Of a DNA stretch of 32,680 nucleotides, positions 28,904 through 31,676 are shown one piece after another. The DNA is from Coriobacteriia bacterium (GTDB lineage Bacteria; Actinomycetota; Coriobacteriia; Coriobacteriales; UBA8131). The DNA lies in assembly GCA_009784425.1 (NCBI GenBank), contig WRBR01000011.1, positions 1-32,680 of the forward strand. The letters are read 5' to 3'. The notes beneath the pieces were generated by a model that saw only the letters and a list, made by a program, of their open reading frames with translations, searched no databases and was not told the DNA's origin. Positions within the stretch are counted from its first letter, which is position 1; each line of letters begins with the position of its first letter. The translations under genes were made by a program, and so were the position numbers.

Positions 28904-29124
28904 CTCACTGGGGTGGAACAGGGGGACGGGGGTGGAACAGGGGGACGGGGTTAGTGTTCCAATTTGACCTTGGTCAAATTGGAACACTAACCCCGTCCCC
29001 CTGTTCCAGACCTTGGTCAAATTGGAACACTAACCCCGTCCCCCTGTTCCACTGGAGTGAGCCGGGGCCCCAAGACAGAAACAAGCAGCTGAGACCGCTG
29101 AGTGAGTCACTTTCCCCAGTGAGT
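28900..29124. repeat. Nested palindrome cluster, GGGGACGGGG family (copy 2, expanded)
   Basis: The central palindrome has 37-nt perfect arms (28933-28969 with 28972-29008) and a 2-nt centre. The outer part of the left arm is repeated in tandem before it (28914-28930). The whole right arm is repeated after it (29015-29051). Outer segments 28903-28913 and 29114-29124 are again complementary. The stretch GAGTCACTTTCCCCAGTG is identical at 29105-29122 and in copy 1 at 26033-26050. Confidence 0.9.
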
Positions 29125-29152
29125 TGCAACTCAACAGAAGTCTTGCGTGTGC

Positions 29153-29183
29153 TATAGTGTTACGAATTAGCAATCTGTAACAC
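29153..29183 (+). promoter_or_regulatory. Extended -10 promoter with NikR-type operator
   Basis: TGC precedes TATAGT (29153-29158), an extended -10. GTGTTAC (29157-29163), 13 nt and GTAACAC (29177-29183) form a dyad overlapping the -10 and the likely start of transcription. GTGTTAC-N13/14-GTAACAC is the described NikR motif of several delta-proteobacteria. The gene downstream is a nickel/cobalt transporter, so nickel repression is the natural reading. Confidence 0.75.
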
Positions 29184-29195
29184 TCAGGAGGTACT

Positions 29196-30167
29196 ATGCA
29201 CATCCCTGACGGTATGCTGGACACAAAGACATTCAGCACACTATGGGTGGGGGCCGCTACTGGCGTTGGTTATGCAGGCTACTGGGTTCGCAAGAACTTT
29301 GACAGTTCAAAAATCGTGTTGATGGCGGTGATGGCCGCTCTTATCTTTGCCTTGCAAATGCTTAACTTTCCCATTGCTGGCGGCACCAGCGGGCACTTTA
29401 CCGGAGGAGCTCTGGTGGGCATTATGCTGGGAGCCTGGCCGGGTGCCATAGTTATGACGGGGGTGCTCCTGATTCAAGCCCTGTTCTTTGGCGACGGAGG
29501 CATCACCACGCTCGGCGCCAACATCGTGAACCTGGCGATTATCGGATGCTTTACGGGCGCCCTCATCTACCAATTATTTCAGCGTATTTCAAAAAGCCTC
29601 ACCAGCAAGATTGTAGGATCGTTTCTGGGCGCCTTTCTCGCCGTGGTTTTTTCCGCGGCGGCAGTAGCCTTGCAGTTGTGGGTCAGTGGCAGCGCGCAGT
29701 TTATCGCGGCTCTTTCTGCCATGACGTTCTGGCACGCCATCATTGGCGTTGGCGAGGGAATCATCACCGCGGGCATTATCGCCTACATCGCAAAGGTGCG
29801 CCCCAAGATCCTCGACGAGGGAGCACAAAGCTCTAAGGGCTCATTCAAGAGCGTTGTTGTGGTGTTTAGTGTTGTGGCGCTGCTTGCAGCCAGTCTTTCA
29901 TTTCTTGCCTCAACGCACCCCGATGGCTTGGAGTTTGTCTATTTTGAGCAGGAAATAGGCACAGCGGAGATTGCAGAAGAAACACTTATTCCGGCGCCTA
30001 TGCCTGATTATGCACTGCCGGGCATAGAAAACGAGGCGCTTGCCATTGCGGGTGCCGGCATTATTGGCACAATGCTGACCGGCGTGCTCATTTGGGCGCT
30101 TGCCTTGGCCCTGAGCAGAAAAAACAAGGGGAAGGACCCCGCCGAGACAGAGGAAGTGCTTGAGTAA
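29196..30167 (+). CDS. cbiM: Nickel/cobalt ECF transporter S component CbiM fused to a PDGLE domain
   Basis: 323 residues. Starts MHIPDGML, whose His2 and N-terminus bind Ni(II) or Co(II) in CbiM/NikM. About six helices follow with GGTSGHFTGGALVGIMLG and FFGDGGITTLGANIVNLAIIG, family signatures. After about residue 215 comes a helix, HPDGLEFVYFE (the PDGLE domain, a CbiN/NikN-like accessory) and a last helix. The fusion replaces a separate small subunit. AGGAGG precedes the ATG. The promoter carries a NikR-type site, so nickel is the more likely metal than cobalt, and NikM(N) would be the matching name. cbiQ overlaps its end by 8 nt. Confidence 0.9.
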   Translation: MHIPDGMLDTKTFSTLWVGAATGVGYAGYWVRKNFDSSKIVLMAVMAALIFALQMLNFPIAGGTSGHFTGGALVGIMLGAWPGAIVMTGVLLIQALFFGDGGITTLGANIVNLAIIGCFTGALIYQLFQRISKSLTSKIVGSFLGAFLAVVFSAAAVALQLWVSGSAQFIAALSAMTFWHAIIGVGEGIITAGIIAYIAKVRPKILDEGAQSSKGSFKSVVVVFSVVALLAASLSFLASTHPDGLEFVYFEQEIGTAEIAEETLIPAPMPDYALPGIENEALAIAGAGIIGTMLTGVLIWALALALSRKNKGKDPAETEEVLE

Positions 30168-30885
30168 CAACGCAGCAGACCAGCTTGCTCCCCATGCCAA
30201 AATTCTAGCCGCAGTCATTGCGGTGCTTGGCATAGTCTTAAGCGCGCCTCACATTCCCCTGGCGGTGGCAAGTGTGATAGCAATCGTCTTGCTGCTGGGA
30301 TTTATCGCTCAGGCAAGTATCAGGCGCATGCTCCTGCAGAGCCTTTTGGTGATTCCCATCGCGGGTGCCATTTCACTCTTTTATCCGCTACGCTTTGTTG
30401 CTGACTGGCAGTTGACTAGCCTCGCCGCTGCCTATGCAGCCAATTGGCAGCCCATGCTGCAACTCATCATCACCCCCTGGCTCTGCGTTTTGGTCATGAT
30501 GCTGCTTGTGCACTCCTCAACACGCTCGGATTTGCTCTTTGGCCTCGAGCGCCTGCGCCTGCCGCGCGTATTGGTGTTGATGCTCTCCTTTATGTATCGC
30601 TACGTAGATGTGATGCGCGCCCAGTTACGTGCGGCTCACCGGTCCCTGGTTTCGCGAGCCCCGGCACTCTCAAAGCGCAGGCAGGTTCTTCTCTACGGCA
30701 ATCTGGCAGGCTCGATGATCATACGCGCCTACGACCGAGGCGAGCGCATCCACGCCGCCATGCTCTCGCGCGGCTTTACCGGCACGCTCCCGAGCCTACA
30801 GGAGCAGCGCATTACAACGAGAGACGTATTATTGCTCGGGGCAACCACACTGTTTGCCGCGGCACTGATACTGATGAACCTTTAG
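30160..30885 (+). CDS. cbiQ: ECF transporter T component CbiQ
   Basis: 241 residues. Four or five hydrophobic helices and the C-terminal coupling helices of EcfT proteins, with the conserved Ala-Arg-Gly-type motif as AMLSRGFTG (and SLVSRAP as the first, less exact one). It connects the ATPase CbiO with CbiM. TTG start at 30160, overlapping the end of cbiM by 8 nt, with GAGGAAG upstream. Confidence 0.9.
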   Translation: MSNNAADQLAPHAKILAAVIAVLGIVLSAPHIPLAVASVIAIVLLLGFIAQASIRRMLLQSLLVIPIAGAISLFYPLRFVADWQLTSLAAAYAANWQPMLQLIITPWLCVLVMMLLVHSSTRSDLLFGLERLRLPRVLVLMLSFMYRYVDVMRAQLRAAHRSLVSRAPALSKRRQVLLYGNLAGSMIIRAYDRGERIHAAMLSRGFTGTLPSLQEQRITTRDVLLLGATTLFAAALILMNL

Positions 30886-30941
30886 AGAGTTAAGAGTTAA
30901 GAGTTAAGAGTTAAGAGAGAAGAGAGAAGAGAGAAGAGAGG
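30886..30941 (+). repeat. Heptanucleotide tandem repeat before cbiO
   Basis: Four copies of AGAGTTA (30886-30913) are followed by three of AGAGAGA (30914-30934) and one AGAGAGG (30935-30941), directly after the cbiQ stop. The last unit provides the ribosome binding site, 9 nt before the GTG of cbiO. The whole 65-nt gap consists of this and a short AT-rich spacer. Confidence 0.9.
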
Positions 30942-30950
30942 AAATAAACT

Positions 30951-31676
30951 GTGTCCTGTTCGATAGTCTATGACAATGTGCACTACACCTATCAAGACGG
31001 CACTCAGGCTCTGCGTGGTCTGAGCTTTACGTTGGGGCATGGGGAGCACGTGGCTTTGCTGGGTCCAAACGGTGCCGGCAAAAGCACCGCCATGCTGCTG
31101 TCTAATGGTGTGCTGATGCCCTCAAGCGGCGAGGTGCGCGTAGGAGACCTAACCTTGAGCAAAGAAACCCTGGTACGTATTCGCCAACGCGTGGGCCTGG
31201 TTTTTCAAGACCCGGATGACCAGCTCTTTATGACTACGGTCTACGAGGATGTGGCTTTTGGGCCAAGCAATATGAAGCTCAACAAAAAGGAGATTGAACA
31301 AAGGGTCACCAGCGCTCTCGAAGCGGTTTCACTGCTTAAAGAAGTCAAAAAGTCTCCGCAGGATCTGTCGTTTGGACAAAAAAAGCGCGCGGCACTCGCC
31401 ACCATCCTTGTCATGGAGCCGGACTTTCTCATCCTCGATGAGCCCTCCAGCAATCTAGACCCCAGGGGCCGCCGCCAGATGATGGAGCTGCTGCGCACCA
31501 TTGACGCAACTATGCTCATAGCAACGCACGACCTTGACTTGGTCTGGGAAATGCTCCCACGCTCCATCATCATAGATGAAGGTAAGATAGTAGCCGATGG
31601 CCCCACGAAAGAACTCCTGCAAAACAAAGCATTGCTCACTGCTCACGGCCTGGAGCTACCAAACGCCGTGCGGTAA
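30951..31676 (+). CDS. cbiO: ECF transporter ATPase CbiO
   Basis: 241 residues. Walker A GPNGAGKST (38-46), Q-loop FQDPDDQLFMTTVYEDVAFGP (typical for ECF ATPases), signature LSFGQ (139-143) where LSGGQ is usual, Walker B FLILDE (159-164) and the switch His in ATHDLD. Powers metal uptake with CbiQ and CbiM. GTG start, with the ribosome binding site formed by the end of the heptamer repeat. The Phe for Gly in the signature is a mild departure. Confidence 0.9.
   Translation: MSCSIVYDNVHYTYQDGTQALRGLSFTLGHGEHVALLGPNGAGKSTAMLLSNGVLMPSSGEVRVGDLTLSKETLVRIRQRVGLVFQDPDDQLFMTTVYEDVAFGPSNMKLNKKEIEQRVTSALEAVSLLKEVKKSPQDLSFGQKKRAALATILVMEPDFLILDEPSSNLDPRGRRQMMELLRTIDATMLIATHDLDLVWEMLPRSIIIDEGKIVADGPTKELLQNKALLTAHGLELPNAVR

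Follow-up and report, generated by a model that had tools for sequence, protein, structure and literature searches.

The site described here is, with a probability of about 0.9, a NikR operator at the promoter of an ECF nickel importer of the nikMNQO type, which would be repressed in a nickel-dependent manner. It lies in a 32,680-nucleotide stretch of DNA (the window, by which we mean the whole stretch analysed) from a gut-type actinobacterium whose genome assembly is 2.0 Mb and 86% complete. The operator interpretation is supported by the presence of a nikR gene in the same genome, by retention of the site upstream of cbiM and of non-homologous nickel importers, and by its absence from a family that lacks NikR (family f5). 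Judged by its sequence, the site is confirmed as a genuine NikR operator of the ordinary kind, in a lineage that has been little described.

A motif scan placed an exact 27-bp inverted repeat, GTGTTAC-N13-GTAACAC (GTGTTACGAATTAGCAATCTGTAACAC), at positions 29157–29183, with all 14 of 14 motif positions matching. The motif and spacing claimed for this site in an earlier sequence-only reading are therefore present with 0 mismatches. We also recovered the overlap with an extended -10 box that this reading had proposed: the promoter scan returned TCAACA-16-TATAGT with a TG ahead of the -10, and the final two bases of TATAGT are the first two of the left half-site. The extent given earlier, 29153–29183, was correct at its end but not at its start, since 29153 takes in the -10 and the operator proper begins at 29157. 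The start codon of nikMN is 12 bp past the end of the operator and 39 bp past its beginning. Coordinates of these features, and loci of related features in other genomes, are listed in Table 1.

Table 1. Features of the window, and loci carrying related features elsewhere
Feature	Position or loci	Strand	Basis or remark
Weak -35 hexamer TCAACA	29131..29136	+	consensus match only, 16-nt spacer
Extended -10 TGC-TATAGT	29150..29158	+	sequence, promoter scan
Left NikR half-site GTGTTAC, predicted	29157..29163	+	sequence, motif scan
Right NikR half-site GTAACAC, predicted	29177..29183	+	motif scan, conservation; 13-bp spacer 29164-29176
Ribosome-binding site AGGAGG	29186..29191	+	sequence
nikMN, CbiM (PF01891) fused to PDGLE (PF13190); S component + accessory domain, 323 aa	29196..30167	+	domain/profile search
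nikQ/cbiQ, T component; TTG start inside nikMN end	30160..30885	+	domain/profile search
nikO/cbiO, ATPase	30951..31676	+	domain/profile search
Hairpin repeat copies	L017 2490-2547, L009, L011, L018 2230-2330 (variant)		
Tandem NikR-type sites	L083, L086, L087, L089-L094, L096 (family f2); L115, L125 (f1)		
Small membrane-like protein	L097:4045-4452, L112, L256, L268		
FmdE-like protein	L108, L117, L118, L260, L270, L283		
Direct-repeat sites	L223/L279 (G029), L224/L277 (G005), L231/L276 (G085), L232/L275 (G105); f10: L299, L302, L303, L304, L306-L310		GTGTTAC-N13/14-GTGTTAC or complement, at nickel importer promoters

The ECF operon claimed to lie behind the operator was borne out by open reading frames and domain searches, with CbiM-PDGLE, CbiQ and CbiO encoded on the same strand. 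CbiM/NikM, an N-type accessory domain, Q and O all occur in one operon, the set by which a NikMNQO-type ECF importer is recognised. Short tandem repeats (agagtta, agagaga) occupy the gap between nikQ and nikO (window 30886–30950). Several NCBIfam models name the importer "cobalt transporter", with every score below cut-off. CbiMNQO and NikMNQO systems are close homologues, and some transport both ions. Together with the names of the closest protein families (cobalt transporter CbiM/CbiQ/CbiO), this homology leaves some room for an importer that sits behind a NikR operator and yet serves mainly cobalt, for B12, or both metals, with cobalt limited as a side effect. We consider such a cargo unlikely. 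The S component is fused to PDGLE, and a full-length large subunit of [NiFe]-hydrogenase, which requires nickel, is encoded in the same genome (C4:39124-40614). A riboswitch search of the window returned none, cobalamin type included, and we reject riboswitch control of the importer. Moreover, within the window's genus the operator precedes nikMNQO in three genomes (G000, G049, G113) and a NikA-type importer in two (G014, G093), two of the five genomes compared being only about 72% complete; nikMNQO and a close NikA homologue thus replace each other behind the same operator. From the operator, this importer swap and the hydrogenase, we infer that nikMNQO imports nickel. An importer that annotation pipelines label "cobalt" would thereby gain both a metal and a regulator.

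The nikR gene of the source genome lies on contig C124 (3257-3637), separate from the importer, after a thioredoxin-like gene and a small open reading frame. It reaches the contig end, such that 127 residues are visible and the last residues are unseen. Its presence removes the objection that the genome might have no nikR homologue. The protein has RHH (PF01402) and NikR_C (PF08753) domains, both above cut-off, and scores 168 bits against the NCBIfam NikR model (cut-off 105). All four nickel ligands of the family (His/His/His/Cys) are kept, as H80, H91, H93 and C99. In an alignment with solved NikRs (2bj1, 2ca9) they fall in the HVH...C and QH region, and the closest solved structure is Pyrococcus NikR (2bj1, E = 1e-37). 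The DNA-reading strand is intact, with the sequence RFSVA, as in Pyrococcus horikoshii NikR (2bj1). Autoregulation of nikR was rejected, there being no site within 3 mismatches on the nikR contig.

From knowledge of the NikR family, we infer nickel-dependent binding, repression and a nickel cargo. With nickel in excess, Ni-NikR would bind as a tetramer whose two ribbon-helix-helix dimers each occupy a half-site, at a distance of 20 bp from one another. The bound protein would cover the -10 together with the predicted transcription start (about 29165), and a block to RNA polymerase would follow from this position and known NikR biology. With nickel scarce, NikR would leave, the importer would be made and the [NiFe]-hydrogenase would be supplied.

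We examined the distribution of nikR and of the operator in 120 genomes of the order. Of these, 84 had nikR and 44 had an inverted N13 site with no more than 1 mismatch. The site occurred in 41/84 genomes with nikR versus 3/36 without it (p = 1e-5; counts not phylogenetically independent). Family f5 has nikR in 0/25 genomes, and these 25 genomes yielded neither a site at 0 or 1 mismatch, whether inverted, direct or everted, nor a hydrogenase match. We also applied a motif-blind test to the best 30 cbiM loci, 25 from nikR genomes, four from f5 and one from genome G117. In the nikR genomes, 23 of the 25 sampled cbiM genes had a site at 0–2 mismatches no more than 200 bp upstream of the start codon (20 at 0 or 1 mismatch, three at 2; N13 or N14, all arrangements counted), whereas 0/4 of the cbiM genes from nikR-less f5 had one. 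Shuffled sequence met the same definition in about 1% of cases. The cbiM locus of G117 (61% complete, no nikR seen) has an everted site with 1 mismatch. NikR and the operator type seen in the window are standard across most of the order. This survey reveals a NikR regulon in Coriobacteriales; we found no description of one in the open-access literature, subscription papers lying outside the search.

These distributions bear on whether the palindrome is read by some other regulator, such as an unknown RHH protein or a Fur-type Nur protein, the presence of NikR being coincidental. The operator and nikR are on different contigs, and two incomplete genomes with sites before NikA genes (G065, G073) show no nikR, as such a regulator would allow. 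Nevertheless, this alternative is highly improbable: the site is identical to the consensus that independent work on delta-proteobacteria established for NikR (PMC545781), as the sequence-only reading had claimed; it co-occurs with nikR at the level of the order; 25/25 of the f5 genomes, all without nikR, are without the site; and the genes behind the sites are nickel importers. A chance palindrome, which would fit a site that is the sole copy at 0 or 1 mismatch genome-wide, is a negligible prospect, since exact matches are expected at 9e-5 per window, 0.006 per 2.0-Mb genome and about 6e-7 per 200-bp upstream region, the second-best site in the window departs from the motif at 3 positions, and conservation at the same promoter in congeners refutes it. 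There, the -10/operator string TGTGCTATAGTGTTACG is kept whole in two Coriobacteriia/Coriobacteriales MAGs (L139, L140), so the earlier concern that the motif is conserved only by chance falls on this and on the 23/25 versus 0/4 cbiM genes.

Further copies near nickel enzymes, which had also been predicted, were not borne out: the source genome (86% complete) gave no second convincing site. A 2-mismatch site before a NirJ2-like radical SAM and FecBCD operon (C16:10867) was rejected as a weak regulon member; about six 2-mismatch matches are expected by chance in this genome (uniform-base estimate), and the site is not kept in two congeners. Two 1-mismatch candidates were likewise rejected, an everted site (C39:16353) that is part of a hairpin-like repeat and precedes an unrelated gene, and a direct site (C65:10423) inside a gene. 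A long perfect hairpin repeat (GGGACGGGGTTAGTGTTCCAATTTGACC...GGTCAAATTGGAACACTAACCCCGTCCC) occupies window positions 28930–29050, with a folding z of -12, and recurs at several places in the genome, including upstream of the nikR operon.

Returning to the NikR operator, sites in relatives precede three unrelated importer types: SBP_bac_5/NikA, for which the nearest models are NikA; Peripla_BP_2/FecBCD, in many cases accompanied by an FmdE-like gene; and CbiM. The window carries a single operator; many genomes have two. Tandem NikR-type sites occur before NikA-type genes, most often with 53 bp between their starts, or about five turns of the helix. In four genomes, NikR-type sites lie directly upstream of a gene whose product, at about 136 aa, is small, membrane-like and uncharacterised and has no above-cut-off Pfam match. 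An FmdE-like protein (PF02663 plus a zinc-finger tail) is encoded behind other sites, beside FecBCD-type operons or alone, and is possibly a partner of a chelated-nickel importer. The operator flags both proteins as candidate nickel genes. In genome G119, a site with one mismatch (L098:4001-4027) is immediately ahead of a gene resembling NuoL/hydrogenase membrane subunits.

Several cbiM promoters of relatives carry the second half-site in reversed orientation, giving a direct form, GTGTTAC-N13-GTGTTAC (for example the 27-bp sequence GTGTTACGAATTTGAAATTCGTGTTAC). Exact direct N13 copies numbered 18 in 120 genomes, compared with about 1 for a reversed-pattern control and about 1.5 expected from base composition. 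All 15 of the 15 copies inspected adjoin genes for NikA, FecB, FmdE, CbiM or the small protein, which occurs at inverted sites as well. In family f10, NikA promoters have the direct form, mostly N14, and cbiM promoters the inverted form, N14. This family first seemed to have NikR without targets because inverted-repeat N13 searches miss direct repeats; we rejected the notion of a NikR without operators as an artefact of the search pattern. Everted sites are rare, two of them preceding FmdE and CbiM genes (L283, L285). Each half-site can be written as GT-GTT-AC or GT-AAC-AC, with a symmetric outer GT/AC and a flipped central triplet, and NikRs from genomes with the inverted form and from those with the direct form have a reading strand that is RFSVA or close to it. 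The direct repeats suggest that the half-site may be readable in either orientation; the RHH dimer is itself two-fold symmetric, and could therefore in principle recognise both. We lean towards a model in which NikR of this order reads GT-[GTT or AAC]-AC both ways, with the central triplet exchangeable for its reverse complement, such that inverted, direct and everted N13/14 repeats would all work, RFSVA would serve all of them, and the operator would be kept while unrelated nickel importers exchange, even within one genus. Direct-repeat operators offer a testable exception to the idea that a repressor with two-fold symmetry requires an operator of matching symmetry. Our search of the open-access literature, which left aside subscription papers, found no published direct-repeat NikR sites.

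Nickel regulation in Actinomycetota has a known example in Streptomyces Nur, a Fur-family protein that, like its motif, is unrelated to NikR and its motif. It is NikR, not Nur, that fits the window site. The sequence-only reading had regarded a delta-proteobacterial motif as out of place in actinobacterial DNA, a view at odds with the 84/120 genomes of the order that have nikR and with the occurrence of the motif elsewhere. NikR was found in 44/296 sampled Actinomycetota genomes, 26 of these outside the order, and the same inverted motif precedes nikM in contigs of Nitrospirota, Verrucomicrobiota, Poribacteria and Clostridia. Because NikR extends to other Actinomycetota and the motif to other phyla, the motif is no evidence of import from delta-proteobacteria. 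Among the closest known systems is nik(MN)QO of Geobacter metallireducens, for which a NikR operator has been reported upstream of the operon (Rodionov et al. 2004, PMC545781). Both have the 27-bp GTGTTAC-N13-GTAACAC site upstream of a fused NikMN importer; however, they belong to different phyla, and the window site is 39 bp before the start codon, over the -10, whereas the Geobacter site is at -63. E. coli NikR, which acts at nikABCDE through GTATGA-N16-TCATAC (PMC7055735), shares the regulator family, the overall operator length and a nickel-importer target. By contrast, its half-site differs, and the reading strand in the window's lineage, RFSVA, is P. horikoshii-like (2bj1). Desulfotalea has everted NikR sites, GTAACAC-N13-GTGTTAC (PMC545781), and half-sites inverted in place are seen also in the window's relatives, in the two everted sites. 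As an alternative arrangement, however, these relatives mostly use the direct repeat, a form absent from PMC545781; the window's own site is of a known kind, and the new element is the direct-repeat operator form in its relatives.
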